This document shows, in pieces, positions 7,629 through 39,630 of a DNA stretch of 64,000 bases. Numbering within the stretch: position 1 is the stretch's first letter; every line of letters starts with the position of its first letter. The translations under genes and the position numbers were made by a program. The notes beneath the pieces are model-generated. The model did no database searches and had not been told where the DNA came from. It was given only the letters and a program-made list of their open reading frames with translations. The DNA is from Ligustrum vulgare (Eukaryota; Streptophyta; Magnoliopsida; Lamiales; Oleaceae). The stretch lies in contig OY743171.1 in the NCBI GenBank assembly GCA_963555705.1, positions 25,600,852 through 25,664,851 of the forward strand, read 5' to 3'.

Positions 7629-8341
7629 TGTAATTTTTTTTATAAAAAAATGTTATTCAAATATAGATATCAAAGTATAAAGGTGAAAAAATGCAAAAAT
7701 CGGATAGAAATGATGAGAGCCGGTCCAAAAAGTGCAAAACCAGACCAAACAGTTCAATTGGAACGAACCAGATGGACAAAGTGGACCAGACCGGACTAAT
7801 AGTCCGAAACCATGCGACCGCACGATACTTATAAGCGCGCGGTCGCGCTGTTGAAAAATTTGACCGTTGGACAAAATGATCCAGTTTTTTGCATACACAT
7901 TTTCATCAACATTTTGCACTCTTTCATGAAGAGTTGTGTGAACCATGAATTGGGGTGATGTAATTCTATAAATAGATATAGAATTCATGGTTTTCAAAAT
8001 AAGATTATCACTTTTACATTGTGATTATCACCATCAAATTCTTGTTCTTCGTATTTATAATCTTTTTCATTTGCTCTTCTTGTTCTCTATTTTCAAGTTT
8101 TCAATTGTGCTATTTGATACTTGGTTTGAAACTTGAGATTTGCTAAAGCAATTTTCTTGGAGGCCTTTAGCATTCTCTTTATGAGAGGACACAAATTTAG
8201 CTTTTAGGATAGCATTATTTGCGATTCAAGACTTTAATCTCTTCTTCTTATTTTCTATTATCTTCTTGATTCTTTGATTTCATTTTTATGTCTATAACAA
8301 CAAAACAGATATTTCACTTCAAGAAAGGATTTTTATCAACA
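7629..8341 (+). repeat. 5' LTR of the host copia element
   Basis: Starts TGTAATTTTT, contains a TATAAATAG box near 7970, and ends ATCAACA. It matches 44096-44802 with many scattered differences and small indels, so the element is old. I did not recognise a standard PBS after it. Confidence 0.8.
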
Positions 8342-8361
8342 ACCTAAAAGCTAAATTTGAT

Positions 8362-8777: not shown

Positions 8778-8782
8778 CCTTT

Positions 8783-10680
8783 TGTTGACCTATGGTCAAT
8801 TTGACCTTATTGTTTTGATCATAACAAACAAGAATTTATTGTGTTGCTAACAAGTGTGCTTCAAGTGTTTCATGTAATGATAAATATTCAAAGCACTCAA
8901 TGTTCAAATCGTCTCTTAAAAATATAAATCAAAATTATGTGATCGAGCACATGAGACGCAAAGAAGATCATGAAATCATTGAAGATATTCAAAGATCAAA
9001 ATTGAGGTTGAAAAGCATGACATGAAGATCAAGATTTCAAGCTTACAAGATTAGAGTTGATTTAACGTATGTAAAGGTATAACACTCTCAATCTTTAGCG
9101 ATGAAATTCAACGAGCTCGAAAATGATTTTTATGCATCAAGAAACTTACTTGGAAATTCATCACTTGCATAAAATATTTTTATATAAGTCAAGATTGTCT
9201 TTCAAATGTTATTTGATCTTAAATCATGATTATATTATGTTAAACCACTTTGAAAAACAAGTTAGAAACCTAAAAATCAAAAATTTTCATATTTTTCAAA
9301 AGTCAACCAAAAGTCAACGGTCAACAGTTGACTTTCGGTCGACCGAAAGTTTGGTCAACCGAAAGTTTCGGTCGACCGAAAGTTGGTCAACCGAAAATTC
9401 AACGGTTGAATTTATAACGGCTATATGGAAGATTCGGTCGACCGAAACTTCAAATTGGTCAACCGAAAGTTGCTGAATTTGAATATTTTGATCTATAAAT
9501 AGCCATCTCATTCACATTCAATAACAACAACTTAGATAAGATTTATACAAACTTTCTTGTGAAAATTCATTGTTCTTACTTAGTTTTTATTCATCTTTTA
9601 TTTTCATAAAACTTTGATTGATCTAAACTTTGTTTTATCAAATTCATCAAAGTTTTTGGAAGAAAGTTTTGTGAAGATTCTTGGTTTTACATTGTTTGAA
9701 TTTCTTCAACATCTTCACACTATATTGGAATTGAAGTGTAAGTCTCTCTTTGTTCTAAACTTGTTTTAATCTTTAAAAAGAGAGAAATTTCAATTAAGGA
9801 ACTTTGATTATTTGTGCTACATTTTTCATCATCATTTGATTCATCAAAATTCCATTGCCTAAACACTTTGAGCTTAACTTATTGTTAATTATTCAAGTGT
9901 GGCATCTCTTGGTACTTAATTCGATTCAATATTTTTAACAAGAGATTATTTGAAAAACTTTGTTTGATTGCATCAACTTTTCATTATCATTTGCATCAAA
10001 GTTTTTCTCTAACACTCGAGCTTAATTCATTGCTATCTATTGAAGTGTTAGCCTAACTCTCTTGGTACTTAATTTGAGTATATCATTTGTCAAGAGAGTT
10101 ATTTCAATTGTAAATTCAATTCATTATATCTTGTGGTTTCGAGAGCCTTGTGAAAACTCGATTGTTGGTTTTCGAGAGCCTTGTCAAAACTCGATTGTTG
10201 GTTTTCGAGAGCCTTATCAAAACTCGATTGTTGGTTTCGAGAGCCGTGTGAAAACTCGATTGTAAAAGGATAGGCGCTCCTTGTTGTAAGTCGCCTAAGG
10301 ATTTGGTACTCCTTGTTGTAAGTTACCAAAATAGTGGATTTGGCCTTGCTCGTGACGGAGAGCTCGGTAACGGGGGACGTAGATCACGTTGGTTGATTGA
10401 ACCTCCATAAATCGCGTTTGCACTCTCTCATCCCTTTTATTTACTTACATCGCACTTACTCTATTCTATCAATTTATATTGTGCAACGCTTTATCTTAGT
10501 GCTATACTTGCCTTATCAATTAAGTTTACACATATATAGCACACTACATTGATAGTTTAGTTACTTGTAACACTAAGTGCTAATACTTGTACCTATTGGT
10601 TTTAAGTTTGAGATTATTTATCGAAAAAGTTTTATAAACCAATTCACCCCCCTCTTGGTTAATTTACTCTTGGGCTAACA
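8783..10680 (+). repeat. Composite element LTR 1
   Basis: 1,898 bp, starts TGTTGACC, ends GGGCTAACA. Contains three TTCGGTCGACCGAA palindromes (9334-9446), a TATAAATAG box near 9495 and a four-fold repeat of about 31 bp (10137-10262, unit with TTTCGAGAGCCTTGT). Confidence 0.94.
9334..9446. promoter_or_regulatory. Palindromic boxes upstream of the LTR TATA box
   Basis: Three perfect 14-bp palindromes TTCGGTCGACCGAA at 9334, 9367 and 9433, interspersed with GGTCAACCGAAAG half-site variants, lie within 165 bp upstream of TATAAATAG. The same block recurs in LTR 2 (about 15466-15578) and LTR 3 (about 21558-21671). Position suggests an enhancer or activator-binding array; this is inference. Confidence 0.55.
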
Positions 10681-10681
10681 A

Positions 10682-10694
10682 TTGGTATCAGAGC
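10682..10694 (+). other. Primer-binding site, internal domain 1
   Basis: TTGGTATCAGAGC immediately inside LTR 1, the common tRNA-Met-type PBS of plant retrotransposons. Confidence 0.9.
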
Positions 10695-10735
10695 TTAGGT
10701 GCTCGTTTTTTAAAAGATTTTACAATCTTGAGTAA

Positions 10736-11683
10736 ATGGCTAACCATAATCTTGAGGGGCATTCTACAAATCGTCCTCCTTTCTTTGATGGTACAAATTA
10801 TAATTATTGGAAAACTAGAATGATGATTTTTATTCAATCCATTGATTATAATATTTGGGATGTCATTGAATCCGGTCCTCATGAGCTTACTATGGTCATT
10901 AAGGTTGATGGAAAACCGGATCAAACTATCTTAAAACCTAGAGAGGAATACGATGAAAATGATAGGAGGAAATTGACTTTAAATGCTAGGGCCAAAAATA
11001 TACTTTATTGTGCTTTGGATATTAATGAATTTAATCGTATTAGCACATGTGATTCCGCACACGATATTTGGCATGCTTTAGAAGTCACACACATGGGCAC
11101 AAATAAGGTTAAAGAAACAAAAATAAATCTTTTGTATAAAAATTTTGAAAATTTCTTTATGAAGCAAGATGAGCCCATTACTTGCATGATTACTCGTTTT
11201 ACCGATATTGTAAATGGTCTTAAAGGCTTTGATCATAAATTTACTAACGGTGAACTTGTGAGTAAAATTCTTAGGTCTCTCTCCCAAGATTGGAATCATT
11301 TGAGGATGTTGATCGAAAACACGATAGACGTCAACACACATCCATTGGAGGAACTTTATGGAACATTGATGACTTATGAGCTCAACAATGCCGAAACAAA
11401 GGAGAGGACAAGAAAAGGAAAAGAAGAGGCCAAGCGCGAAATTGTTCTTAAATCATCACATGGTAAATGCGCATCAAACTCAAATATAAGTGATGAGGAA
11501 CTTGATGATCTTGCTATCCTTATCAAGAAGTGGAGAGGCGTTCGCAAAAATCATCGAATCCAAAAGAGAGAAGAAAATGTTAAAAGTGATGATGAGCAAG
11601 ATGAAATAGCCAACATGTGCTTCATGGCCATTGACGATGAGGTAAATTTCTTTGATACATCTTGGATTTTAAATTATCAATGA
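10736..11683 (+). CDS. Copia-type Gag without zinc knuckle (copy 1)
   Basis: 315 aa intact frame starting 42 bp after the PBS. Residues about 10-60 carry the plant copia gag opening (PPFFDGTNYNYWKTRMMIF), residues 110-230 the UBN2-type helical capsid region (IWHALEVTHMGTNKVKE, ITRFTDIVNGLKG). Gag would form virus-like particles in the cytoplasm and package element RNA. The usual CCHC knuckle is missing: the chain passes from a basic RKNHRIQKREE segment to an acidic tail ending in ANMCFMAIDDEV, a phrase that normally follows the knuckle in this family, so I infer an internal deletion. No protease or pol follows. Confidence 0.88.
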   Translation: MANHNLEGHSTNRPPFFDGTNYNYWKTRMMIFIQSIDYNIWDVIESGPHELTMVIKVDGKPDQTILKPREEYDENDRRKLTLNARAKNILYCALDINEFNRISTCDSAHDIWHALEVTHMGTNKVKETKINLLYKNFENFFMKQDEPITCMITRFTDIVNGLKGFDHKFTNGELVSKILRSLSQDWNHLRMLIENTIDVNTHPLEELYGTLMTYELNNAETKERTRKGKEEAKREIVLKSSHGKCASNSNISDEELDDLAILIKKWRGVRKNHRIQKREENVKSDDEQDEIANMCFMAIDDEVNFFDTSWILNYQ

Positions 11684-12337
11684 TTTAAATTTCTATGAAT
11701 CAACATTTTTGATTAAAGCATCTTGCTCTTCATAAAAATTTCTTACATATGTTGAGTATGAATATGAAACATGGTGCTAATATGTGGTTTATGCATAATT
11801 GTATGTTACATGTTTTAACCGAAATCAAATGAAAAAAAAAAAAATTTCAATTTTTAGTGATTTCGGTCGACCGAACCTTTGTCGGACGATCGAAACTGTC
11901 TTTTCGGTCGACCGAACCTTTGTCGGACGACCGAAACTGTCTTTTTGGTCGAACAAATGCTCAACCGAAAGATGTTTCGGTCTACCAACTGTACGACCGA
12001 AACCAGACTTTCGGTCGACCATTAGTCAGCCGAAAGTGTCTGCAGCTTCCTGATTTTTACTCTGCAGAGTTTCGGTCGACCGGTTCATACTTTCGGTCGA
12101 CCGAAAGTGGCTGAAATAAGGGATTTTCTTTTATTTTCAAATTTGTCATACACAATCCCTAAATGACTTGAAATCATCTTCTTCTCTTCATAAAACTCTT
12201 GTAATACATTTCTTTGATCACTTATTTTTTGGCTTTGAGAGTGATATGATTGTTGACCAAAATTGTTTTGATATGTCGACATAATGCATTATCCTTTAAC
12301 TCATTTCATGATAACAATTACTTCATAGTCAAACATA
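11684..12337. other. Spacer with TTCGGTCGACCGAA array (internal domain 1)
   Basis: No coding sequence. At 11862-12105 palindromes and half-palindromes of the same kind as in the LTR occur, including a 41-bp direct repeat (unit starts at 11862 and 11903). Internal domain 2 has one fewer 41-bp unit, which explains most of the length difference between the domains. Confidence 0.8.
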
Positions 12338-12660
12338 GATATTATTATTTCTCATTAAAGAGTACACACTAGAGTCACACTTGAAAGGAAATACATGGTA
12401 CACGCAAATTCTAAAGAGAGAAACATGGAAAGTCCTCAAAATGAGAGATGTGTTTCCGGAGTAGCCGTATCCTACCACCTCTGATCTTTTGAGGAAACAA
12501 AGACAAACCTTCAAAGAGGTGTGTTTCGAGAGTAAAAATACTCCGTAATCTACCACATTTGAAGTACACACACAAGATTTAAACATTAAGGTAATCCTAG
12601 GAAATTAGAGGGGTGTCTCAAGAGTGAGTATACTCCGTACTCTACCCCCACCTATTTTAG
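12338..12660 (-). promoter_or_regulatory. 3' flank of cassette A with threefold repeated motif
   Basis: Downstream of the LOG stop on the minus strand. A motif readable on the plus strand as GTGTTTC..GAGTA..TACTCCGTA.TCTACC occurs three times (about 12451-12480, 12519-12556, 12612-12648). The flank is conserved in cassette C at 34425-34756, unlike the surrounding retroelement. The short inverted words (AGAGT/ACTCT) could form hairpins in the transcript or mark a terminator; function is not established. Confidence 0.55.
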
Positions 12661-12663
12661 GAT

Positions 12664-13317
12664 TCACAAAGTCAAATTTACATTAACCGGACTCCTTTTT
12701 CGCTTGACTCCCCTTCCTTGCGACCAATCTATCTTTAAACCTGCTGGATCTTGTATTGGGATATATGACTGCAGCTTATCCAGTAGTTCATCAATAGTTG
12801 GAGCAGAAATAAGGATCCTTCTGGAAAATGGAGAGATGAATCCCTGTTCCACTGCATGATCAAGAAAGGTTAACAAACCATCAAAGAAATGGTTAACATT
12901 TAATAGCCCAATAGGTTTAGTATGGAGATCTAGTTGAGCCCAGGAGGTAATATTAAAGATTTCTTCTAAGGTGCCAAAACCTCCGGGCAGGGCTATAAAT
13001 GCATCAGATCCATATAGCATACAAGTTATGCGTTCATGGATAGATAAGGTTTGTACTTCATGACCTCGTGTTTTGCCTGCTATATCTGCTAAAGGGACAG
13101 GAATAACACCAATCACCCTTACTTTCTCTGTGAGAGCAGATTGGGAAACACAGCCCATCAGACCACTGCTACCTCCTCCATACACAAGATTGATACCTTT
13201 CTCCCCCAGTTTCTTTCCAAGGTCTACTGCTGTTTCAAGATACCCAAAACCTTTCCCCACATGTGATCCACAAAATACACATATTGTTTTGATCTGTCTT
13301 AGTTTTGATCCCTCCAT
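12664..13317 (-). CDS. LOG: LOG-type cytokinin nucleotide phosphoribohydrolase (cassette A)
   Basis: 217 aa, intronless. LOG enzymes hydrolyse cytokinin riboside 5'-monophosphates to free cytokinin base plus ribose 5-phosphate in the cytosol. The Rossmann-type fold is visible from ICVFCGS (12-18) onward; nucleotide-binding GGGSSGLMG lies at 47-55, HER with conserved Arg at 94-96, and the catalytic PGGFGTLEE at 111-119. Length matches plant LOGs (about 210-230 aa), whose genes usually have several introns, so this is a retro- or virus-processed copy. A basic C-terminal tail (GVKRKRSP, 203-210) is an added feature, possibly nuclear targeting. The gene lies antisense to its retrotransposon, 262 bp downstream of the zinc-finger gene, with its own TATA-like box. 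Confidence 0.92.
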   Translation of the reverse strand: MEGSKLRQIKTICVFCGSHVGKGFGYLETAVDLGKKLGEKGINLVYGGGSSGLMGCVSQSALTEKVRVIGVIPVPLADIAGKTRGHEVQTLSIHERITCMLYGSDAFIALPGGFGTLEEIFNITSWAQLDLHTKPIGLLNVNHFFDGLLTFLDHAVEQGFISPFSRRILISAPTIDELLDKLQSYIPIQDPAGLKIDWSQGRGVKRKRSPVNVNLTL

Positions 13318-13388
13318 TTTTGTAAGAAAAGAAAGGAAAACTCAAGAGAAGATGTGATTTTGGGATGCATGAACTATGAAAACCTTTG

Positions 13389-13401
13389 GCTATTTAAAAA
13401 C
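13389..13401 (-). promoter_or_regulatory. TATA-like box of LOG gene A
   Basis: Minus strand TTTTTAAATAGCC about 75 bp upstream of the LOG ATG. The same site is kept in cassettes B and C (CTTTAAATAGCC) at the same distance, while neighbouring intergenic bases differ. Confidence 0.6.
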
Positions 13402-13579
13402 CGAAAAACTACACTATTTACGATCATCTTTTTGAAAAAGCAAAGATTTACTTTTGACAAATTCAGCCTACTTTTGAATATTTTTATCGTATCGAGGCTG
13501 TCACCTTTCGGCGATTTATTTTATTTAAACCTTTATCAAAACTCGCGAAAGGAAAAAGGATCAAAAATTTTACCTTATA

Positions 13580-14110
13580 TCAATGCTGGGTTTCCAAAAC
13601 AGACTGGCAAACCGGATCTTTTGCGATTGTATTCTTGAGACTATAACGTTTTTTATCCTCGTTAAATTGAGCATATAAGGAAAGAAGTTCCCGTTGCACA
13701 TATCCACTTGGGTGCGTCTCAAGAGTCAATCTAATATCATCCAAACACTCCATACTCAGTCCACCCTTTATGAAATCAATTTTATCATCTCGATTGTTAG
13801 ATGAATATCCGACTGTTTTGCAACGAGAATCACAATTCCAACGAGCACATTTGTAGCAACCATTCAGCCTTTTTGCTCTTCGCTTCTTTGCAAAAGTGCT
13901 TTTACCCAAACCAGGCAGATGTTTAGGAAATGATAATGGTAATTCACCAGTTAATCGGACTTTTGCTTCTATTAACCAGCGCACGTCTTCTGGAACGCCA
14001 TGAGCCATAAGCACCCTCAATCTTTCGAGCCTCATTTGATAATTTTTTCTAAGATCATTCATTGGAAGATTGGAATAATACTTGCGAATGCTTGAAAGGA
14101 TGTTATCCAT
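13580..14110 (-). CDS. Carlavirus NABP-like cysteine-rich zinc-finger protein (cassette A)
   Basis: 176 aa, basic, no signal peptide or membrane segment. An N-terminal helical part (MRLERLRVLMAHGVPEDVRW, 26-45) leads to a Gly/Ser turn and a basic patch AKKRRAKRL (74-82), then four cysteines at 85, 88, 93 and 97 (C-x2-C-x4-C-x3-C) and a conserved DDKIDFIKGG (108-117). This order, basic RR-A patch followed directly by a Cys finger, is that of the 3'-proximal nucleic-acid-binding protein of carlaviruses and relatives (Carla_C4 family), though the finger loop is shorter and the C-terminal 60 residues are extra. Related viral proteins bind nucleic acid, enter the nucleus and affect silencing or transcription. 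Residue 23 is Asn here but Ile in the other copies. Family call is by pattern only. Confidence 0.7.
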   Translation of the reverse strand: MDNILSSIRKYYSNLPMNDLRKNYQMRLERLRVLMAHGVPEDVRWLIEAKVRLTGELPLSFPKHLPGLGKSTFAKKRRAKRLNGCYKCARWNCDSRCKTVGYSSNNRDDKIDFIKGGLSMECLDDIRLTLETHPSGYVQRELLSLYAQFNEDKKRYSLKNTIAKDPVCQSVLETQH

Positions 14111-14139
14111 TTTTTGATGGATTTAACCTCTTCCCAACC

Positions 14140-14153
14140 GATCTTTTTAAAGG
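14140..14153 (-). promoter_or_regulatory. TATA-like box of zinc-finger gene A
   Basis: Minus strand CCTTTAAAAAGATC about 30-40 bp upstream of the ATG; cassette C has CCTTTAAATAGATC at the equivalent place (36296-36309). Confidence 0.5.
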
Positions 14154-14914
14154 TGAAAAGGATCTGGGTAGTTCCTCATGATACTGTTTCCTGCAAGACA
14201 ATATGAAATAGAATAATGAAAAGAGGGAACAAGATTTCATGCGCTGTAACTTTACTGTTAAAGGAAGATTTGATCTGCGATATTGAATATTTTACTTGGA
14301 TTTTGTACTGATATGTTTCGGTATAATAATAATCAAGGTATATAGGACCTGGGTAGATCCACAGGCTGTTAAGTCCAGCGAGAAAGCAGGGAATAGAAAA
14401 ATGAAAAGAGGGAACAGGATTTTAATGCGCTGTAACTTTTACTATTAAAGAAAGATTTGATTTGAGATATGCGATTTTACTGGAATACGTGAAACTGAAT
14501 TTTGTGATTTTTGGTAATTTTTCATGCTAAAAATGCTTTTACTATTAAAGGGGGAATGCTTCACTAAAGGGGAAATTCGATTACAATCGAGATATTTTTT
14601 TTTTTTTTGCCCCATTATTATGCTTATCACACCTATGCTCATGAATAAGGAATAGATGCCACCTTTTTGCTTATGCCAAAAGGGGGAAAATATGGTGATG
14701 ATTTGATTTGCTTGAAATTGGATAATCTATATTCATAAAAAGGATTATATTAATTGCTAGATTATACCTCATTGGTGTGTATAAGATAGGGGGAATATAT
14801 GCTAAAATTGAACTTATCAATTATTCTCATTTCCCTACACTTTGATTACGTGCTTCAATTGCTTTTATTATCATTACAAATCATCTTGTTTGTCATAATC
14901 AAAAAGGGGGAAAT
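14154..14914. promoter_or_regulatory. Upstream region of cassette A with a direct duplication
   Basis: No coding sequence. A block of about 95 bp (14191-14285) is repeated at about 14377-14470; both contain AATGAAAAGAGGGAACA and GCGCTGTAACTTT. Cassette C has one related copy. Homology with cassette C can be followed to about 14500. The region ends in the purine tract AAAAAGGGGGAAA (14901-14913), the PPT before LTR 2. Confidence 0.6.
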
Positions 14915-16812
14915 TGTTGACCTATGGTCAATTTGACCTTATTGTTTTGATCATAACGAACAAGAATTTATTGTGTTGCTAACAAGTGTGCTTCAAGTGT
15001 TTCATGTAATGATAAATATTCAAAGCACTCAATGTTCAAATCGTCTCTTAAAGATATAAATCAAAATTATGTGATCGAGCACATGAGACGCAAAGAAGAT
15101 CATGAAATCATTGAAGATATTCAAAGATCAAAATTGAGGTTGAAAAGCATGACATGAAGATCAAGATTTCAAGCTTACAAGATTAGAGTTGATTTAACGT
15201 ATGTAAAGGTATAACACTCTCAATCTTTAGCGATGAAATTCAACGAGCTCGAAAATGATTTTTATGCATCAAGAAACTTACTTGGAAATTCATCACTTGC
15301 ATAAAATATTTTTATATAAGTCAAGATTGTCTTTCAAATGTTATTTGATCTTAAATCATGATTATATTATGTTAAACCACTTTGAAAAACAAGTTAGAAA
15401 CCTAAAAATCAAAAATTTTCATATTTTTCAAAAGTCAACCAAAAGTCAACGGTCAACAGTTGACTTTCGGTCGACCGAAAGTTTGGTCAACCGAAAGTTT
15501 CGGTCGACCGAAAGTTGGTCAACCGAAAATTCAACGGTTGAATTTATAACGGCTATATGGAAGATTCGGTCGACCGAAACTTCAAATTGGTCAACCGAAA
15601 GTTGCTGAATTTGAATATTTTGATCTATAAATAGCCATCTCATTCACATTCAATAACAACAACTTAGATAAGATTTATACAAACTTTCTTGTGAAAATTC
15701 ATTGTTCTTACTTAGTTTTTATTCATCTTTTATTTTCATAAAACTTTGATTGATCTAAACTTTGTTTTATCAAATTCATCAAAGTTTTTGGAAGAAAGTT
15801 TTGTGAAGATTCTTGGTTTTACATTGTTTGAATTTCTTCAACATCTTCACACTATATTGGAATTGAAGTGTAAGTCTCTCTTTGTTCTAAACTTGTTTTA
15901 ATCTTTAAAAAGAGAGAAATTTCAATTAAGGAACTTTGATTATTTGTGCTACATTTTTCATCATCATTTGATTCATCAAAATTCCATTGCCTAAACACTT
16001 TGAGCTTAACTTATTGTTAATTATTCAAGTGTGGCATCTCTTGGTACTTAATTCGATTCAATATTTTTAACAAGAGATTATTTGAAAAACTTTGTTTGAT
16101 TGCATCAACTTTTCATTATCATTTGCATCAAAGTTTTTCTCTAACACTCGAGCTTAATTCATTGCTATCTATTGAAGTGTTAGCCTAACTCTCTTGGTAC
16201 TTAATTTGAGTATATCATTTGTCAAGAGAGTTATTTCAATTGTAAATTCAATTCATTATATCTTGTGGTTTCGAGAGCCTTGTGAAAACTCGATTGTTGG
16301 TTTTCGAGAGCCTTGTCAAAACTCGATTGTTGGTTTTCGAGAGCCTTATCAAAACTCGATTGTTGGTTTCGAGAGCCGTGTGAAAACTCGATTGTAAAAG
16401 GATAGGCGCTCCTTGTTGTAAGTCGCCTAAGGATTTGGTACTCCTTGTTGTAAGTTACCAAAATAGTGGATTTGGCCTTGCTCGTGACGGAGAGCTCGGT
16501 AACGGGGGACGTAGATCACGTTGGTTGATTGAACCTCCATAAATCGCGTTTGCACTCTCTCATCCCTTTTATTTACTTACATCGCACTTACTCTATTCTA
16601 TCAATTTATATTGTGCAACGCTTTATCTTAGTGCTATACTTGCCTTATCAATTAAGTTTACACATATATAGCACACTACATTGATAGTTTAGTTACTTGT
16701 AACACTAAGTGCTAATACTTGTACCTATTGGTTTTAAGTTTGAGATTATTTATCGAAAAAGTTTTATAAACCAATTCACCCCCCTCTTGGTTAATTTACT
16801 CTTGGGCTAACA
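14915..16812 (+). repeat. Composite element LTR 2 (central, shared)
   Basis: 1,898 bp, near-identical to LTR 1 (only a few single-base differences seen). It serves as the 3' LTR of unit 1 and the 5' LTR of unit 2. Confidence 0.94.
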
Positions 16813-16813
16813 A

Positions 16814-16826
16814 TTGGTATCAGAGC
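16814..16826 (+). other. Primer-binding site, internal domain 2
   Basis: TTGGTATCAGAGC, identical to that of internal domain 1. Confidence 0.9.
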
Positions 16827-16867
16827 TTAGGTGCTCGTTTTTTAAAAGATTTTACAATCTTGAGTAA

Positions 16868-17815
16868 ATGGCTAACCATAATCTTGAGGGGCATTCTACA
16901 AATCGTCCTCCTTTCTTTGATGGTACAAATTATAATTATTGGAAAACTAGAATGATGATTTTTATTCAATCCATTGATTATAATATTTGGGATGTCATTG
17001 AATCCGGTCCTCATGAGCTTACTATGGTCATTAAGGTTGATGGAAAACCGGATCAAACTATCTTAAAACCTAGAGAGGAATACGATGAAAATGATAGGAG
17101 GAAATTGACTTTAAATGCTAGGGCCAAAAATATACTTTATTGTGCTTTGGATATTAATGAATTTAATCGTATTAGCACATGTGATTCCGCACACGATATT
17201 TGGCATGCTTTAGAAGTCACACACATGGGCACAAATAAGGTTAAAGAAACAAAAATAAATCTTTTGTATAAAAATTTTGAAAATTTCTTTATGAAGCAAG
17301 ATGAGCCCATTACTTGCATGATTACTCGTTTTACCGATATTGTAAATGGTCTTAAAGGCTTTGATCATAAATTTACTAACGGTGAACTTGTGAGTAAAAT
17401 TCTTAGGTCTCTCTCCCAAGATTGGAATCATTTGAGGATGTTGATCGAAAACACGATAGACGTCAACACACATCCATTGGAGGAACTTTATGGAACATTG
17501 ATGACTTATGAGCTCAACAATGCCGAAACAAAGGAGAGGACAAGAAAAGGAAAAGAAGAGGCCAAGCGCGAAATTGTTCTTAAATCATCACATGGTAAAT
17601 GCGCATCAAACTCAAACATAAGTGATGAGGAACTTGATGATCTTGCTATCCTTATCAAGAAGTGGAGAGGCGTTCGCAAAAATCATCGAATCCAAAAGAG
17701 AGAAGAAAATGTTAAAAGTGATGATGAGCAAGATGAAATAGCCAACATGTGCTTCATGGCCATTGACGATGAGGTAAATTTCTTTGATACATCTTGGATT
17801 TTAAATTATCAATGA
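16868..17815 (+). CDS. Copia-type Gag without zinc knuckle (copy 2)
   Basis: 315 aa, identical in protein sequence to the copy at 10736-11683; one silent change was noticed (AAT to AAC near 17617). It shares the same missing CCHC knuckle and the same absence of downstream pol, so both units were already gag-only before they were joined. It would need reverse transcriptase and integrase from an autonomous copia relative. Confidence 0.88.
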   Translation: MANHNLEGHSTNRPPFFDGTNYNYWKTRMMIFIQSIDYNIWDVIESGPHELTMVIKVDGKPDQTILKPREEYDENDRRKLTLNARAKNILYCALDINEFNRISTCDSAHDIWHALEVTHMGTNKVKETKINLLYKNFENFFMKQDEPITCMITRFTDIVNGLKGFDHKFTNGELVSKILRSLSQDWNHLRMLIENTIDVNTHPLEELYGTLMTYELNNAETKERTRKGKEEAKREIVLKSSHGKCASNSNISDEELDDLAILIKKWRGVRKNHRIQKREENVKSDDEQDEIANMCFMAIDDEVNFFDTSWILNYQ

Positions 17816-18429
17816 TTTAAATTTCTATGAATCAACATTTTTGATTAAAGCATCTTGCTCTTCATAAAAATTTCTTACATATGTTGAGTATGAATATGAA
17901 ACATGGTGCTAATATGTGGTTTATGCATAATTGTATGTTACATGTTTTAACCGAAATCAAATGAAAAAAAAAAAAAATTTCAATTTTTAGTGATTTCGGT
18001 CGACCGAACCTTTGTCGGACGACCGAAACTGTCTTTTCGGTCGAACAAATGCTCAACCGAAAGATGTTTCGGTCTACCAACTGTACGACCGAAACCAGAC
18101 TTTCGGTCGACCATTAGTCAGCCGAAAGTGTCTGCAGCTTCCTGATTTTTACTCTGCAGAGTTTCGGTCGACCGGTTCATACTTTCGGTCGACCGAAAGT
18201 GGCTGAAATAAGGGATTTTCTTTTATTTTCAAATTTGTCATACACAATCCCTAAATGACTTGAAATCATCTTCTTCTCTTCATAAAACTCTTGTAATACA
18301 TTTCTTTGATCACTTATTTTTTGGCTTTGAGAGTGATATGATTGTTGACCAAAATTGTTTTGATATGTCGACATAATGCATTATCCTTTAACTCATTTCA
18401 TGATAACAATTACTTCATAGTCAAACATA
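17816..18429. other. Spacer with TTCGGTCGACCGAA array (internal domain 2)
   Basis: As in domain 1 but with one fewer 41-bp unit. Palindromes lie at about 17995-18200. No coding sequence. Confidence 0.8.
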
Positions 18430-18752
18430 GATATTATTATTTCTCATTAAAGAGTACACACTAGAGTCACACTTGAAAGGAAATACATGGTACACGCAAA
18501 TGCTAAAGAGAGAAACATGGAAAGTCCTCAAAATGAGAGATGTGTTTCCGGAGTAGCCGTATCCTACCACCTCTGATCTTTTGAGGAAACAAAGACAAAC
18601 CTTCAAAGAGGTGTGTTTCGAGAGTAAAAATACTCCGTAATCTACCACATTTGAAGTACACACACAAGATTTAAACATTAAGGTAATCCTAGGAAATTAG
18701 AGGGGTGTCTCAAGAGTGAGTATACTCCGTACTCTACCCCCACCTATTTTAG
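18430..18752 (-). promoter_or_regulatory. 3' flank of cassette B with threefold repeated motif
   Basis: Nearly identical to 12338-12660; same three TACTCCGTA-type motifs downstream of the LOG stop. Confidence 0.55.
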
Positions 18753-18755
18753 GAT

Positions 18756-19409
18756 TCACAAAGTCAAATTTACATTAACCGGACTCCTTTTTCGCTTGAC
18801 TCCCCTTCCTTGCGACCAATCTATATTTAAACCTGCTGGAACTTGTATTGGGATATATGACTGCAGCTTATCCAGTAGTTCATCAATAGTTGGAGCAGAA
18901 ATAAGGATCCTTCTGGAAAATGGAGAGATGAATCCCTGTTCCACTGCATGATCAAGAAAGGTTAACAAACCATCAAAGAAATGGTTAACATTTAATAGCC
19001 CAATAGGTTTAGTATGGAGATCTAGTTGAGCCCAGGAGGTAATATTAAAGATTTCTTCTAAGGTGCCAAAACCTCCGGGCAGGGCTATAAATGCATCAGA
19101 TCCATATAGCATACAAGTTATGCGTTCATGGATAGATAAGGTTTGTACTTCATGACCTCGTGTTTTGCCTGCTATATCTGCTAAAGGGACAGGAATAACA
19201 CCAATCACCCTTACTTTCTCTGTGAGAGCAGATTGGGAAACACAGCCCATCAGACCACTGCTACCTCCTCCATACACAAGATTGATACATTTCTCCCCCA
19301 GTTTCTTTCCAAGGTCTACTGCTGTTTCAAGATACCCAAAACCTTTCCCCACATGTGATCCACAAAATACACATATTGTTTTGATCTGTCTTAGTTTTGA
19401 TCCCTCCAT
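18756..19409 (-). CDS. LOG: LOG-type cytokinin nucleotide phosphoribohydrolase (cassette B)
   Basis: 217 aa, intact, and with the same motifs as cassette A: GGGSSGLMG at 47-55, HER at 94-96 and PGGFGTLEE at 111-119. It differs from copy A by three replacements (G41C next to the nucleotide-binding strand, D190V and K195N near the C terminus) and no silent change that I found. This pattern fits recent, unselected or RT-introduced change after the two units diverged. Cys41 sits just before a conserved strand, so activity of this copy is less certain than of A or C. Same antisense placement and 262 bp from the zinc-finger gene. Confidence 0.9.
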   Translation of the reverse strand: MEGSKLRQIKTICVFCGSHVGKGFGYLETAVDLGKKLGEKCINLVYGGGSSGLMGCVSQSALTEKVRVIGVIPVPLADIAGKTRGHEVQTLSIHERITCMLYGSDAFIALPGGFGTLEEIFNITSWAQLDLHTKPIGLLNVNHFFDGLLTFLDHAVEQGFISPFSRRILISAPTIDELLDKLQSYIPIQVPAGLNIDWSQGRGVKRKRSPVNVNLTL

Positions 19410-19479
19410 TTTTGTAAGAAAAGAAAGGAAAACTCAAGAGAAGATGTGATTTTGGGATGCATGAACTATGAAAACCTTT

Positions 19480-19494
19480 GGCTATTTAAAAACC
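19480..19494 (-). promoter_or_regulatory. TATA-like box of LOG gene B
   Basis: Same TTTTTAAATAGCC as in cassette A, about 75 bp upstream of the ATG. Confidence 0.6.
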
Positions 19495-19671
19495 GAAAAA
19501 CTACACTATTTACGATCATCTTTTTGAAAAAGCAAAGATTTACTTTTGACAAATTCAGCCTACTTTTGAATATTTTTATCGTATCGAGGCTGTCACCTTT
19601 CGGCGATTTATTTTATTTAAACCTTTATCAAAACTCGCGAAAGGAAAAAGGATCAAAAATTTTACCTTATA

Positions 19672-20202
19672 TCAATGCTGGGTTTCCAAAACAGACTGGC
19701 AAACCGGATCTTTTGCGATTGTATTCTTGAGACTATAACGTTTTTTATCCTCGTTAAATTGAGCATATAAGGAAAGAAGTTCCCGTTGCACATATCCACT
19801 TGGGTGCGTCTCAAGAGTCAATCTAATATCATCCAAACACTCCCTACTCAGTCCACCCTTTATGAAATCAATTTTATCATCTCGATTGTTAGATGAATAT
19901 CCGACTGTTTTGCAACGAGAATCACAATTCCAACGAGCACATTTGTAGCAACCATTCAGCCTTTTTGCTCTTCGCTTCTTTGCAAAAGTGCTTTTACCCA
20001 AACCAGGCAGATGTTTAGGAAATGATAATGGTAATTCACCAGTTAATCGGACTTTTGCTTCTATTAACCAGCGCACGTCTTCTGGAACGCCATGAGCCAT
20101 AAGCACCCTCAATCTTTCGAGCCTCATTTGATAAATTTTTCTAAGATCCTTCATTGGAAGATTGGAATAATACTTGCGAATGCTTGAAAGGATGTTATCC
20201 AT
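19672..20202 (-). CDS. Carlavirus NABP-like cysteine-rich zinc-finger protein (cassette B)
   Basis: 176 aa, intact. The basic patch AKKRRAKRL and the four cysteines (85, 88, 93, 97) are unchanged. It differs from copy A at three residues: Lys18 (Asn in A and C), Ile23 (Asn in A, Ile in C, so B is ancestral here) and Arg120 (Met in A, Lys in C). All three are replacements. The role is inferred as nucleic-acid binding, possibly nuclear given the basic patch. Family call as for copy A, by pattern rather than by search. Confidence 0.7.
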   Translation of the reverse strand: MDNILSSIRKYYSNLPMKDLRKIYQMRLERLRVLMAHGVPEDVRWLIEAKVRLTGELPLSFPKHLPGLGKSTFAKKRRAKRLNGCYKCARWNCDSRCKTVGYSSNNRDDKIDFIKGGLSRECLDDIRLTLETHPSGYVQRELLSLYAQFNEDKKRYSLKNTIAKDPVCQSVLETQH

Positions 20203-21006
20203 TTTTTGATGGATTTAACCTCTTCCCAACCGATCTTTTTAAAGGTGAAAAGGATCTGGGTAGTTCCTCATGATACTGTTTCCTGCAAGACAATATGAAA
20301 TAGAATAATGAAAAGAGGGAACAAGATTTCATGCGCTGTAACTTTACTGTTAAAGGAAGATTTGATCTGCGATATTGAATATTTTACTTGGATTTTGTAC
20401 TGATATGTTTCGGTATAATAATAATCAAGGTATATAGGACCTGGGTAGATCCACAGGCTGTTAAGTCCAGCGAGAAAGCAGGGAATAGAAAAATGAAAAG
20501 AGGGAACAGGATTTTAATGCGCTGTAACTTTTACTATTAAAGAAAGATTTGATTTGAGATATGCGATTTTACTGGAATACGTGAAACTGAATTTTGTGAT
20601 TTTTGGTAATTTTTCATGCTAAAAATGCTTTTACTATTAAAGGGGGAATGCTTCACTAAAGGGGGAATTCGATTACAATCGAGATATTTTTTTTTTTTTT
20701 GCCCCATTATTATGCTTATCACACCTATGCTCATGAATAAGGAATAGATGCCACCTTTTTGCTTATGCCAAAAGGGGGAAAATATGGTGATGATTTGATT
20801 TGCTTGAAATTGGATAATCTATATTCATAAAAAGGATTATATTAATTGCTAGATTATACCTCATTGGTGTGTATAAGATAGGGGGAATATATGCTAAAAT
20901 TGAACTTATCAATTATTCTCATTTCCCTACACTTTGATTACGTGCTTCAATTGCTTTTATTATCATTACAAATCATCTTGTTTGTCATAATCAAAAAGGG
21001 GGAAAT
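20203..21006. promoter_or_regulatory. Upstream region of cassette B
   Basis: Matches 14111-14914 with a few substitutions, including the duplicated 95-bp block, the TATA-like CCTTTAAAAAGATC (20232-20245) and the terminal purine tract before LTR 3. Confidence 0.6.
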
Positions 21007-22905
21007 TGTTGACCTATGGTCAATTTGACCTTATTGTTTTGATCATAACAAACAAGAATTTATTGTGTTTCTAACAAGTGTGCTTCAAGTGTTTCATGTA
21101 ATGATAAATATTCAAAGCACTCAATGTTCAAATCGTCTCTTAAAGATATAAATCAAAATTATGTGATCGAGCACATGAGACGCAAAGAAGATCATGAAAT
21201 CATTGAAGATATTCAAAGATCAAAATTGAGCTTGAAAAGCATGACATGAAGATCAAGATTTCAAGCTTACAAGATTAGAGTTGATTTAACGTATGTAAAG
21301 GTATAACACTCTCAATCTTTAGCGATGAAATTCAACGAGCTCGAAAATGATTTTTATGCATCAAGAAACTTACTTGGAAATTCATCACTTGCATAAAATA
21401 TTTTTATATAAGTCAAGATTGTCTTTCAAATGTTATTTGATCTTAAATCATGATTATATTATGTTAAACCACTTTGAAAAACAAGTTAGAAACCTAAAAA
21501 TCGAAAATTTTCATATTTTTCAAAAGTCAACCAAAAGTCAACGGTCAACAGTTGACTTTCGGTCGACCGAAAGTTTGGTCAACCGAAAGTTTCGGTCGAC
21601 CGAAAGTTGGTCAACCGAAAATTCAACGGTTGAATTTATAACGGCTATATGGAAGATTCGGTCGACCGAAACTTCAAATTGGTCAACCGAAAGTTGCTGA
21701 ATTTGAATATTTTGATCTATAAATAGCCATCTCATTCACATTCAATAACAACAACTTAGATAAGATTTTATACAAACTTTCTTGTGAAAATTCATTGTTC
21801 TTACTTAGTTTTTATTCATCTTTTATTTTCATAAAACTTTGATTGATCTAAACTTTGTTTTATCAAATTCATCAAAGTTTTTGGAAGAAAGTTTTGTGAA
21901 GATTCTTGGTTTTACATTGTTTGAATTTCTTCAACATCTTCACACTATATTGGAATTGAAGTGTAAGTCTCTCTTTGTTCTAAACTTGTTTTAATCTTTA
22001 AAAAGAGAGAAATTTCAATTAAGGAACTTTGATTATTTGTGCTACATTTTTCATCATCATTTGATTCATCAAAATTCCATTGCCTAAACACTTTGAGCTT
22101 AACTTATTGTTAATTATTCAAGTGTGGCATCTCTTGGTACTTAATTCGATTCAATATTTTTAACAAGAGATTATTTGAAAAACTTTGTTTGATTGCATCA
22201 ACTTTTCATTATCATTTGCATCAAAGTTTTTCTCTAACACTCGAGCTTAATTCATTGCTATCTATTGAAGTGTTAGCCTAACTCTCTTGGTACTTAATTT
22301 GAGTATATCATTTGTCAAGAGAGTTATTTCAATTGTAAATTCAATTCATTATATCTTTTGGTTTCGAGAGCCTTGTGAAAACTCGATTGTTGGTTTTCGA
22401 GAGCCTTGTCAAAACTCGATTGTTGGTTTTCGAGAGCCTTATCAAAACTCGATTGTTGGTTTCGAGAGCCGTGTGAAAACTCGATTGTAAAAGGATAGGC
22501 GCTCCTTGTTGTAAGTCGCCTAAGGATTTGGTACTCCTTGTTGTAAGTTACCAAAATAGTGGATTTGGCCTTGCTCGTGACGGAGAGCTCGGTAACGGGG
22601 GACGTAGATCACGTTGGTTGATTGAACCTCCATAAATCGCGTTTGCACTCTCTCATCCCTTTTATTTACTTACATCGCACTTACTCTATTCTATCAATTT
22701 ATATTGTGCAACGCTTTATCTTAGTGCTATACTTGCCTTATCAATTAAGTTTACACATATATAGCACACTACATTGATAGTTTAGTTACTTGTAACACTA
22801 AGTGCTAATACTTGTACCTATTGGTTTTAAGTTTGAGATTATTTATCGAAAAAGTTTTATAAACCAATTCACCCCCCTCTTGGTTAATTTACTCTTGGGC
22901 TAACA
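21007..22905 (+). repeat. Composite element LTR 3
   Basis: 1,899 bp. It carries a handful of private changes (for example TTTCTAAC near 21069 and one extra T near 21768), more than LTR 1 and LTR 2 carry relative to each other. Ends GGGCTAACA followed by the TSD CCTTT. Confidence 0.94.
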
Positions 22906-22910
22906 CCTTT

Positions 22911-24251: not shown

Positions 24252-25861
24252 TGATAAGTGCTTTATTAGCATGTATTTAATTCACTTATTATCCTATTTT
24301 TTTATTAGTTTGATCCTATTGAAGTATCGTTTAATGCATTTTCATTTAATGTGTTATACAGGATCGAAAAGAACGAAAAGAAAGGAAACATGACCAAAGA
24401 AATACAAAAAAATCAAGAAGTGAGGTTCAAGGGCATATTCAAAGAGCTCCAAATCAATAATGGCATGTGGGAAGAATATTACATGCAAAGATTATGGTCA
24501 AAGAAGGTTTGGAATGAAGTTTGAAATCAAAAACCCGCAAGGATTGTGATCATGAATTTTAGTCATAGATTGAAGCTCAATTTGGTCATAGAATACTTTC
24601 GAATTTTGGAAGATCTATTTCACAAAGAATTTTATATATTTGAGTTTTCTTTCCAATGCAACTTGAATCACCACAATCAGACTTCAGGAGAGAAAGTTAT
24701 GACCAAAACATCGAACACAGGCGCTTCTCGGCAGAAATACACTTACGGCCGTAAATTAAAAATTTACGGCCGTAAATTCCAAATTCCGGAAATTTTCAGA
24801 ATCCCAATTACGGCCGTAACTTGCTCTTCAAGGAATTTCCTTATTTGATTCAAGGTCTATCTTTGGTATATCTTTGGGGTAAAGCTAGGGCAGGATTTTG
24901 TGAATATTAAAGGAGCAAAATAGCCACAAAAAGGAGGTTGGACATTGAGGAAAATTGAGAGAAAAATATAGAGCATTCTTGGGAGATTTTCAAGTGCAAG
25001 AATATCAATAACGGTGGAATTCATGAAGCAACTTGAAGAATCTACCACAACAATGCTAGGCTAAATTCCATATCTTGTTCAAAAGGGAAAGTTGTATTAA
25101 CTTGATTATGTTATTTTCTTTTCCTACAAATTAGTAGCGTGAATTTATTCCTTTATTTCAATTGTTGGATTATTATGTTTTGAATGTTCAATTGAGTTTA
25201 TTTGATTAATAGTTTAATTTGGCCAATTGGATTATTGATCTTTGGATTCATGAATATGCTATGTTTAGATTCTTGATCCGTAATTGTCATTGAATCTTTA
25301 CTTTAGTAGCAAATAAATCTCGTGCAGGTTTAGTAATAATTCGACTTGGATTGTTTAATTCGAGCTTGTGTAATTAACGATCCAATTCAATCTATTCTTC
25401 TAAATTTTCATACTAGTCGTGCATTAAATCCTAAGAGCTTGTTTAGGATTGTCCATGGCTAGAATTGGTTCAAAGAGCTTATTTTGAATCAATACACATA
25501 AGGAAGAATTTAGATAATCAGAGCTTGTTGATTATTTATGATTGATAATTGAATTAGGAATAGAAACACGTTACAAGGAAAAGTATAACATTAATTGAGG
25601 GCACAACCGAATCCGAGGACAAGATTTCTTCTCATATTATTTTTCTAGTCATATTGAATTGTTTATTTTTATGCATATTTTTTATTCAAGCAATTTCAAA
25701 CAACAAACCCCCCCCCCCCCAATTCCATTTTAATTGATCGAACAACTAAAATTAGTTTCCGTTCCTCGTGGGATCGACTCTTACTCTCGCTACTACATTA
25801 TTAATTAATATTTAGCAAGTAAGGAATTATTTATTATTTTGGTGCATTGCGACACGCATCA
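24252..25861 (+). repeat. Athila-like 5' LTR
   Basis: 1,610 bp. Contains three ACGGCCGT palindromes at about 24745-24820; the 3' LTR has a fourth related site in a segment of about 20 bp missing here. Confidence 0.9.
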
Positions 25862-30213: not shown

Positions 30214-30509
30214 CCTTGTGTAGCGACCAAGAATTTTTACGCGATTAATAATTATTTTAATAAAAAAACCGTGTCGCTACTATTTCACCCATTTTTATTA
30301 AGTTAACGCCGCGACGTATTCGTATAGCCAAGTCAAGAAATAATCGAGATCGTTCGATTTTAAATTAAATTCCGAAATTTTAAAAATATCTCCATTCTCT
30401 TGATTTAAAGTATATTAAGTCCAAGTACTTAATTCAATGTTATCCCAATATTTATTTATACAAAAATTATTTTTATTATTGAAATTAAGAAAATATATGC
30501 AAGCATGAG

Positions 30510-31076
30510 AGGTTCCATTATATATAATAATTATGAGAATCTTAATTTAATAAATATGGAAAAGTATATGAATGAATTATATACTCCATTATATATAATC
30601 ATGAAGAGCATAATATTTGTATAAATATGGAAAAGTATATGAATGGTTGATATACTCCATTATATGTAATCATGAAGAGCATAATATTTGTATAAATATG
30701 GAAAAGTATATGAATGAATTATATACTCCATTATATGTAATCATGAAGAGCATAATATTTGTATAAATATGGAAAAGTATATGAATGAATTATATACTCC
30801 ATTATATATAATCATGAAGAGCATAATATTTGTATAAATATGGAAAAGTATATGAATGAATTATATACTCCATTATATATAATCATGAAGAGCATAATAT
30901 TTGTATAAATATGGAAAAGTTTATAAATGATTGATAAGACTCCATTATATGTAATCATGAAGAGCATAATATTTGTATAAATATGGAAAAGTATATGAAT
31001 GAATTATATACTCCATTATATATAATCATGAAGAGCATATTATTTGTATAAATATGGAAAAGTATATGAATGAAGC
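30510..31076 (+). repeat. 71-bp tandem repeats upstream of the LTR promoter
   Basis: About eight units, each with ACTCCATTATAT, TCATGAAGAGCATAAT and GGAAAAGTATATGAATG. The same array lies at about 37481-38047 in the 3' LTR. Confidence 0.9.
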
Positions 31077-31301
31077 TTTACTTTAAGAAAATGATGTGTT
31101 AAAATTAATAGAATTGAATGATTATGTTTACAATATGCCAACTTTATACATCTATTTAAACCCATCTCTTTTACACACAACTCTACACATATACACTTAT
31201 TTCCAATCTCTTGACAAAATCCACAAGTAAGAGAAATTCAAGGTGGTCAAGAAAGTTTTGGTCCATTTACTACTACACTTCATTTTAATCTTTTAAAAGG
31301 T

Positions 31302-32235
31302 AAGTATATCTTATGTTTTTATGAAAAGTAAGTATGTTTTTATGAAAGGTAAATACACCTTATGTTTTTATGAAAAGTAAGTATGTTTTTATGACAAGTA
31401 AGTATATCTTATGTTTTTATGAAAAGTAAGTATGTTTTTATGAAAGGTAAATACACCTTATGTTTTTATGAAAAGTAAGTATGTTTTTATGACAAGTAAG
31501 TATATCTTATGTTTTTATGAAAAGTAAGTATGTTTTTATGAAAGGTAAATACACCTTATGTTTTTATGACAAGTAAGTATATCTTATGTTTTTATGAAAA
31601 GTAAGTATGTTTTTATGAAAGGTAAATACACCTTATGTTTTTATGAAAAGTAAGTATGTTTTTATGACAAGTAAGTATATCTTATGTTTTTATGAAAAGT
31701 AAGTATGTTTTTATGAAAGGTAAATACACCTTATGTTTTTATGAAAAGTAAGTATGTTTTTATGACAAGTAAGTATATCTTATGTTTTTATGAAAAGTAA
31801 GTATGTTTTTATGAAAGGTAAATACACCTTATGTTTTTATGAAAAGTAAGTATGTTTTTATGACAAGTAAGTATATCTTATGTTTTTATGAAAAGTAAGG
31901 ATGTTTTTATGAAAGGTAAATACACCTTATGTTTTTATGAAAAGTAAGTATGTTTTTATGACAAGTAAGTATACCTTATGTTTTTATGAAAAGTAAGTAT
32001 GTTTTTATGAAAGGTAAATACACCTTATGTTTTTATGAAAAGTAAGTATGTTTTTATGACAAGTAAGTATATCTTATGTTTTTATGAAAAGTAAGTATGT
32101 TTTTATGAAAGGTAAATACACCTTATGTTTTTATGAAAAGTAAGTATGTTTTTATGACAAGTAAGTATATCTTATGTTTTTATGAAAAGTAAGTATGTTT
32201 TTATGACAAGTAAGTATATCTTTATGTTTTTATGA
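31302..32235 (+). repeat. Tandem array of splice-donor-like units
   Basis: About 38 subunits of 24-25 bp organised in 98-bp higher-order units. Almost every subunit has GTAAGTAT or GTAAATAC followed by TTTTTATG. It begins about 140 bp downstream of the LTR TATA box, at AAAAGGTAAGTATATC. The same array occupies about 38271-39113 in the 3' LTR. Confidence 0.92.
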
Positions 32236-32752
32236 AAATGTTTGGATCATTGCTATGAAATCAATCTCACAAGATTGTTATGGGTTCCATATGATATGTT
32301 TATGATTATGCTAAGGGGACCGGAGTTTAGTAGCGCTACACATAAGAATTCTTGCCATTTAAGTTCGGTAAAATTCTTGTGTCTCCCTATATTTATGAGT
32401 ATTTTTCGATCTTATCCTATGTTATGATGAAAATGATCCATATGCTTTCAAAAGAAAATTTATGCTTGGTATACTTACTGGGATTTTATAAATCTCACTC
32501 TACGATATTTACCATTTTCAGATAATTGAAGGTTCGAGGCGGTCAACATGGAAGTGGCAAAAGTGGTTAAGATTGATGAGATAATTATGTTGAACTTTAT
32601 GTAAGAAAATTATGTTCTATTTATATAAAAAAATAAAATTATGGGATTCTAATTATTCTTTTGAATAATTTTACATTACTATTTAAGTCTCGATAATATG
32701 ATATGAGTCACTTTTAGTGGCACTCGAATGGTCGATATTTCGGGTCGTCACA

Positions 32753-34424: not shown

Positions 34425-34756
34425 AGATATTATTATTTTCTCATAAGGAGAACACACAAGAGTCACCCTAGAAAGGAAATACATGAAATACGCAAAAGCA
34501 AAAGAAAGCAACATGGGAAATTCCTCAAATTGAGAGATGTGTTTCCGGAGTAGCCGTATCCTATCACCTCTGACCTTTTGAGGAAATAAAGAAACCTTCA
34601 AAGAGGTGTGTTTCGAGAGTAAGAATACTCCGTAATCTACCACCTGGAACCTTTGAGGTACACACAAGATTTAAACATTAAGGAAAATCCTAGGAAATTA
34701 GAGGGGTGTCTCGAGAGTAAGAATACTCCGTACTCTACCCCCACCTATTCTAAGAT
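34425..34756 (-). promoter_or_regulatory. 3' flank of cassette C with threefold repeated motif
   Basis: Homologous to 12338-12660. The three motifs with GTGTTTC or GTGTCTC followed by TACTCCGTA or the variant AGCCGTA are retained, and the GAGTAGCCGTATCCTA part is unchanged. Confidence 0.55.
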
Positions 34757-35410: not shown

Positions 35411-35482
35411 CTTTGATAGTATAGAAGAGAAAACTTACGAAGAAGATGTGATTTTGGGATGCCTGAACTATGAAATATGTTT

Positions 35483-35496
35483 GGCTATTTAAAGCC
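35483..35496 (-). promoter_or_regulatory. TATA-like box of LOG gene C
   Basis: Minus strand GGCTTTAAATAGCC, about 75 bp upstream of the ATG, at the same place as in A and B. Confidence 0.6.
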
Positions 35497-35720
35497 GAAA
35501 AAATTTACTGTTTTTGATTGATTCTGAAAAAGTAAAGATTTACTTTTGACAAAATCAGCCTACTTTTGACTATTTTATCAAAGCTTTCATCTTTCGGTGA
35601 TTTATTTTCCAGCTTTATCAAACCTCGAGAAAGGAAAATATATTTTTACTAACCTTTATCAAAACGCGTGAAAGGAAACAGAAGAATATTTTAAATATGT
35701 ATCAAGAGATTTACCTTATA

Positions 35721-39625: not shown

Positions 39626-39630
39626 CCTTG

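Follow-up and report, generated by a model that had tools for sequence, protein, structure and literature searches.

A NABP–LOG gene pair carried antisense by several types of LTR retrotransposon in Ligustrum vulgare

Results

Three copies of a NABP–LOG cassette lie within two LTR elements

The 64-kb stretch of the Ligustrum vulgare genome analysed here (contig OY743171.1, positions 25,600,852–25,664,851 of the forward strand; hereafter, the window) contains three intact copies of a two-gene cassette, in which a gene for a relative of viral nucleic-acid-binding proteins (NABP; 176–181 aa) is followed by a gene of the LOG family of cytokinin-activating enzymes (217 aa). All three lie on the minus strand; copies 1 and 2 reside in one long terminal repeat (LTR) retrotransposon, element A, and copy 3 in another, element B, each antisense to its own element. 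In copy 1, NABP (13580–14110, 176 aa) and LOG (12664–13317) form intact frames at the place where an initial annotation of this DNA had put them. The corresponding frames span 19672–20202 (176 aa) and 18756–19409 in copy 2, and 35721–36266 (181 aa) and 34757–35410 in copy 3. Every NABP copy exceeded the Pfam gathering scores of both Viral_NABP (PF05515; E = 1.8e-7 for copy 1 and 1.4e-8 for copy 3) and Carla_C4 (PF01623; E = 3.2e-5 for copy 1), bearing out the proposed likeness to viral nucleic-acid-binding proteins, and LOG matched PF03641 (E = 2.5e-34 for copy 1, above the curated cut-off, and 4.8e-33 for copy 3).

Element A (8783–22905, plus strand) is a tandem element of three LTRs (8783–10680, 14915–16812 and 21007–22905) and two internal regions, bounded by the 5-base target-site duplication CCTTT (8778–8782 and 22906–22910). 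Compared with one another, its LTRs differ at 2–5 positions per 1898 bases. A primer-site-like sequence, ATTGGTATCAGAGCTTAGG, directly follows LTR 1 (10681–10699, plus strand), a purine tract is present, and each unit encodes a copia-type gag of 315 aa on the plus strand (10736–11683, PF14223, E = 1.2e-25; and 16868–17815), to which the pair is indeed antisense. Element B (30219–39625, plus strand; 5-base duplication CCTTG at 30214–30218 and 39626–39630) has other LTRs (30219–32752 and 37193–39625; the two differ at 10 of 2433 aligned bases, with a further 101 gap columns), and NABP and LOG are its only open reading frames (ORFs) of at least 150 aa. Its 5′ LTR bears long arrays of 71- and 49-base tandem repeats, located at 30348–31002 and 31137–32346 and copied in the 3′ LTR.

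The cassette is the sole substantial homology shared by the internal parts of A and B (12332–14332 against 34420–36498, 83.6%), with weaker pieces extending to 14499. So defined, copy 1 of the cassette (12332–14499, minus strand) nearly coincides with the 12338–14500 delimited initially. Copies 1 and 3 differ at 67 positions in LOG (15, 6 and 46 at codon positions 1, 2 and 3) and at 66 in NABP (13, 10 and 43).

The surroundings appear nested. A repeat pair at 7645–8342 and 44102–44803 (pieces 85–94% alike), which encloses gag-like and copia reverse transcriptase (RT) ORFs, appears to delimit an outer element into which A and a gypsy-like element have inserted; the latter (repeats at 24252–25107 and 39728–40603) seems in turn to be split by B.

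The pair recurs genome-wide in at least three element types

When the genome (1.385 Gb, 51 contigs) was searched, the LOG family and the NABP protein each gave at least 150 scored matches (the 7995 and 8765 first-look candidates, respectively, are not copy counts). Together with the complete elements bounded by target-site duplications, these numbers rule out an ordinary single-copy host locus, the alternative raised by the initial annotation itself: the genes are multi-copy and sit inside complete elements.

We then examined 10 kb at each of 20 further loci, picked for spread from the best 150 LOG matches; the sample is thus biased to well-kept LOG genes, while NABP was not a selection criterion. 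NABP sequence lay beside LOG in the same orientation at all 20. LOG frames reach 210 aa or more in 18 loci and NABP frames 170 aa or more in 14, the remainder being broken or short. Seven loci belong to type A (L009, L011, L013, L014, L017, L019 and L020), one is B-like (L021) and twelve represent a further type, C. Type C has short LTR pairs (~0.16–0.26 kb in 10 of 12 loci), and in the eight copies inspected the primer-site-like sequence resembles CGTTATCAGCACGAG and the purine tract resembles TTCAAGGGGGAG, both unlike those of A and B. Five-base target-site duplications were readable in seven of these eight; L027 sits within an AT repeat.

No gag or pol was recognised in type C. In L012 and L016, ORFs besides the pair amounted to stop-to-stop frames of 92–107 aa and, in antisense, frames of 147 and 248 aa (these further ORFs without a Pfam scan). 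With the element A gag as query, matches appeared in all seven type A loci and in flanking sequence at L027. A copia RT protein query (gypsy RT was not used) had no match within the elements at any of the 20 loci; its two matches in L009 fell outside the LTRs. In L027, a B-type LTR precedes a gag stretch 73% like that of element A, so A and B are possibly distant relatives. The pair is therefore retrotransposon-borne, as first proposed, and the copia-type gag was correctly recognised in element A, but its carrier is not one gag-only element: at least three types of LTR element harbour it.

As a separate observation, the genome contains tandem NABP arrays with steps of ~6.06–6.13 kb, four to six in a row (for example, C11:7519278-7550095, C8:45997858-46016563 and C2:24814049-24845761), which resemble the two-unit array of element A.

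Both frames are constrained between element types

To quantify constraint, we took the ratio of median nonsynonymous to median synonymous divergence (dN/dS) per type comparison, using 21 of 23 LOG and 17 of 23 NABP copies and excluding those with short or no frames. Between types, dN/dS was 0.10 (A–B), 0.10 (A–C) and 0.08 (B–C) for LOG, and 0.14, 0.18 and 0.16 for NABP, at a median dS of 0.38–0.68; within types, it ranged from 0.12 to 0.26. These ratios indicate that both frames are under purifying selection between element types, and together with the codon-position bias of the differences they rule out chance open frames. Given the near-identical LTRs, young elements therefore bear frames that have been constrained over a much longer time. 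The gag of element A has likewise been kept, so this constraint is not special to the cassette.

Element LOG keeps its catalytic core with an altered pocket and a new tail

LOG of copy 1 is intronless—a single open frame—with the PGGFGTLEE motif (12961–12987, minus strand) noted initially, and the window copy retains the PF03641 match, the general PGGxGTxxE motif and the catalytic residues Arg99 and Glu122. In the available excerpts of PMC4979012, Met96, Lys100 and Glu121 form the adenine site of Corynebacterium glutamicum LOG and Arg99 and Glu122 are its proposed catalytic pair; alanine changes at AMP-binding or catalytic residues, except S19A, nearly abolished activity on AMP, and Lys100 and Glu125 are named as base- or prenyl-site residues in this enzyme and in AtLOG3. 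We compared the closest 120 of 6830 LOG relatives with 120 host LOG1/LOG3-type proteins of other plants. Lys100 was kept in 7 of 108 readable relatives versus 118 of 118 host proteins, and Glu125 in 7 of 107 versus 108 of 108. Met96 (97 of 107), Arg99 (104), Glu121 (103), Glu122 (105) and Trp129 (106) were largely retained among the relatives and universal in the host set (each 108/108). The window sequence has Ile, Ile and Asn in place of Met96, Lys100 and Glu125.

A second difference lies at the C terminus. In copy 1, a basic cluster, KRKR (12694–12705, minus strand), is followed by the terminal VNVNLTL (12667–12687, minus strand), an EAR-like sequence in which V replaces L at two positions; the EAR consensus is LxLxL in the accessible parts of PMC9956375 and PMC6283911. 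The tail of the window proteins, KRKRSPVNVNLTL, thus represents the relaxed form only. Among the relatives, 97 of 120 end in [LVI]x[LVI]xL (strict LxLxL in 93), and a basic cluster occurs within the last 28 residues of 105; the corresponding counts among the 120 host proteins are 0, 0 and 2. In a structural model, the protein adopts the LOG fold with good confidence (predicted local distance difference test, pLDDT, 86.1), and residues 201–217 are disordered (pLDDT <50).

In a tree of 62 LOG sequences, a branch with support 98/95 separates 35 relatives and five proteins of the studied genome from 20 host LOG1/LOG3-type proteins, Arabidopsis LOG8 and C. glutamicum LOG (rooting for drawing only). 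Within the former group, P0209 and P0238 from Xanthoceras (Lys100, no tail) branch first, followed by P0174 (Xanthoceras; Lys100 plus tail) and then the remainder, a branching order that fits capture, then gain of the tail, then pocket change. Many relatives come from different chromosomes of a single species, such as Reevesia pubescens, and in P0122 (Xanthoceras) a gag-protease-like retrotransposon stretch, 17 of 41 residues identical, lies between LOG pieces. Scanning viral contigs with the LOG alignment gave 25 loci at 24–46% identity.

The initial annotation had taken this LOG to free active cytokinin and inferred a module that could stimulate host cell division or keep cells in a state favouring transposition. 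In the corresponding model, an active LOG and NABP as a proliferation factor would together raise division in meristem cells, in which new copies are heritable. The conserved PGGxGTLEE motif, the near-complete retention of Arg99, Glu121 and Glu122 and the well-modelled fold speak for such an enzyme, as does a carlavirus protein of the NABP kind described as a transcription factor inducing hyperplasia (PMC12172455, in excerpt). Replacement of Lys100 and Glu125 in most relatives tells against it, and for an active enzyme the acquired basic and EAR-type tail would be superfluous. Together, pocket and tail cast doubt on cytokinin release by the element LOG, and a role in the nucleus, recruiting a corepressor, is no less likely; the tail suggests another or an added role. 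As a claim about function, cytokinin release is thus unsupported as it was stated, and the reading built on it is weakened; we regard it as rather unlikely.

NABP shares family and layout with viral cysteine-rich proteins

In NABP of copy 1, the basic stretch KKRRAKR (13868–13888, minus strand) precedes a four-cysteine finger of the form CX2CX4CX3C (C85–C97; 13820–13858, minus strand), which the initial annotation had also recognised. Across 57 aligned sequences, the basic run KKRRAK (K75–K80) is nearly invariant; among the cysteines C93 is invariant, C88 and C97 exceed 90% and C85 stays below 90%. The order of basic stretch and finger matches that of the viral proteins described in the accessible part of PMC12172455, which combine a nuclear signal with a zinc finger. 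NABP resembles the viral proteins moderately (E = 1e-5 to 1e-8) and, because it is encoded within plant LTR elements and not in a virus genome, we consider it a relative of the viral families rather than a member by origin.

A search of 5.8 billion proteins yielded 198 NABP relatives, with clusters of up to 566 sequences among the matches listed. Species-named entries in the best 120 of the 198 were all from plants (Orobanche, Striga, Populus, Acer, Xanthoceras and Hibiscus). One of them, P0017 from Orobanche gracilis, is a predicted protein that fuses NABP to a LOG end, the only NABP–LOG linkage outside the studied genome among the matches listed. Equal-sized contigs among the NABP and LOG matches (4511, 2128 and 1524) had been considered as further signs of linkage in other plants and were dropped, a few such coincidences being expected; an equal-sized pair of 873, too small for both genes, also counts against linkage on this basis. 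NABP matched none of the solved structures, and its predicted model is weak (pLDDT 66.5; predicted template modelling score 0.32) and unfit for a fold search.

Two further explanations centre on this protein. Viral proteins of the NABP kind are described as silencing suppressors in the same excerpted source (PMC12172455), and NABP is conserved across plants and between element types; it could thus be the main actor, an anti-silencing factor protecting elements in trans, with the LOG derivative as a helper, for instance a nucleotide hydrolase or a NABP partner. This would leave both the stronger conservation of LOG and the gain of its tail unexplained, and the viral resemblance is moderate; we judge it unlikely. 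Alternatively, the cassette might be a fragment of an ancient integrated virus or of another mobile unit, inserted into several elements and passively copied. Kinship with RNA-virus families and the clear ends of the stretch shared by A and B would suit such an origin, whereas selection on both frames across element types would not; no terminal repeats were seen by eye at the cassette ends, and a viral contig scan with NABP gave 23 pattern matches, none confirmed, in a collection that may contain few RNA viruses. We consider passive copying very improbable.

Conserved non-coding parts of the cassette

An alignment of 11 chosen cassettes revealed conserved stretches outside the frames. A TATA-like stretch, TTTAAA, lies upstream of each gene (14143–14151 ahead of NABP and 13391–13401 ahead of LOG in copy 1, minus strand) and is a putative promoter element. 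Most of the 11 also contain, upstream of LOG, a palindrome near AAAAGTAAATCTTTACTTTT (window ~13460–13500, minus strand) that looks like a dimer binding site. After the NABP stop codon, the aligned cassettes carry AAGGTAA (window 13565–13575, minus strand); it would make a good splice donor, for which no matching acceptor was settled.

Downstream of LOG, the cassettes have two or three hairpins whose internal loop is conserved (three in copy 1; 12432–12659, minus strand). Standard pairs fill 90.4% of pair cells across 17 sequences, a share reached by 1 of 500 shuffles, and six cells are changed on both sides (3 of 500 as high). Just two of the 12 pairs have both-side changes, a number matched by 338 of 500 shuffles and exceeded by one slid control. 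Single folds gave z-scores from −3.7 to +0.5, and the whole 271-base 3′ stretch folded no better than shuffles (z = −0.27). With covariation and folding statistics mixed, we grade the hairpin structure as likely rather than proven. Rfam, run over 12200–14700, returned no known structured RNA for these hairpins.

Discussion

A putative nuclear module of LTR elements

The best explanation, in our view, is that the pair forms a two-gene accessory module of non-autonomous LTR elements, antisense and kept by selection, with a nuclear corepressor-adaptor role; we assign it a probability of roughly 0.42. Both genes would be transcribed from their own TATA-like promoters. NABP would act in the nucleus as a nucleic-acid-binding zinc-finger protein, like the viral cysteine-rich proteins. 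The LOG derivative, with fold and catalytic Arg and Glu retained and its base pocket altered, would reach the nucleus by means of its basic and EAR-type tail and act there as an adaptor for a TOPLESS-type corepressor, for which TOPLESS-binding pathogen effectors offer a precedent (PMC7446885 and PMC8126959, as excerpted). Between them, the two proteins might retune host transcription—in defence, silencing or differentiation—such that cells tolerate or transmit new copies; any cytokinin effect would be secondary.

In favour of this corepressor-adaptor module we count the pairing at 20 of 20 loci, the target-site duplications (A, B and seven of eight type C copies), the low dN/dS, the contrast with host proteins in tail and pocket, and the virus-like placing of a basic stretch ahead of the NABP finger; its anatomy, abundance, selection and residue changes are observed. 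Several points weigh on the other side. Purifying selection also fits an active enzyme, and the VNVNLTL of the window copies falls short of strict LxLxL. The tail is lacking in 23 of 120 LOG relatives, some of them cut-off predictions; the LOG sample came from the top-scoring matches, and the contrast covers LOG1/LOG3-type proteins of other plants rather than every LOG group or the species' own LOGs. Expression, nuclear location, partners and benefit to the element, finally, all enter the proposal by inference from sequence.

A bolder extension, which we deem possible rather than probable, is that a nuclear counter-host module, composed of a viral-type zinc-finger protein and an enzyme turned corepressor adaptor, has long been shared among element types and traded between elements, and that NABP genes have been exchanged between RNA viruses on one side and elements or hosts on the other.

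Plant retrotransposons with this backwards pair may, then, influence the nucleus of the host cell. According to the accessible part of PMC7264820, the function of extra and antisense genes in plant retrotransposons is an open question; here, such genes have recognisable relatives and are under selection in several element types, which makes cheap tests possible. The pair also ties a plant-virus protein family to genome-resident elements, and it carries a warning: some plant annotations may contain multi-copy LOG genes that belong to elements and do not encode hormone enzymes.

Comparison with known systems

The initial annotation knew of no described element with this pair. This holds for the pair itself in the literature searched, which is thin on subscription journals: neither the NABP partner nor the EAR-type tail nor the occurrence of the pair in several element types was found there, and as far as this literature goes, partner and tail are previously unreported. 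It does not hold for LOG domains in LTR elements, which are published. According to the excerpts of PMC9289625, LTR elements of two Citrus species contain a LOG (YgdH) domain, as do those of Populus trichocarpa when one filter is switched off; the elements are given as Gypsy-type consensus, and Steinbauerova et al. 2011 is cited. Those elements share with ours a LOG-family domain inside plant LTR retrotransposons; ours differ in the NABP partner, the antisense orientation, the residence in a copia-gag element and two other types, and the changes in tail and pocket.

Extra genes antisense to the element are likewise a feature of Grande, RIRE2, Retand and PvRetro13 (PMC7264820); for Grande, an own promoter and a nuclear protein have been described. 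In the portion of that source available, these antisense ORFs occupy the space between pol and the 3′ LTR and reportedly have no clear relatives, whereas here two genes with known relatives sit in elements without a recognised pol.

Compared with the plant enzymes LOG1, LOG3 and LOG8, the element LOG has the same fold, PGGxGTLEE motif and catalytic Arg and Glu; it differs in its separate tree group (98/95), the replacement of Lys100 and Glu125 in most members, the basic and EAR-type tail and the single open frame. NABP, in turn, belongs with the cysteine-rich proteins of carlaviruses, allexiviruses and mandariviruses to the Viral_NABP and Carla_C4 families and has, as they do, a basic stretch followed by four cysteines. 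Unlike them, it has longer N- and C-terminal parts, occurs in many copies in plant chromosomes and adjoins a LOG gene.

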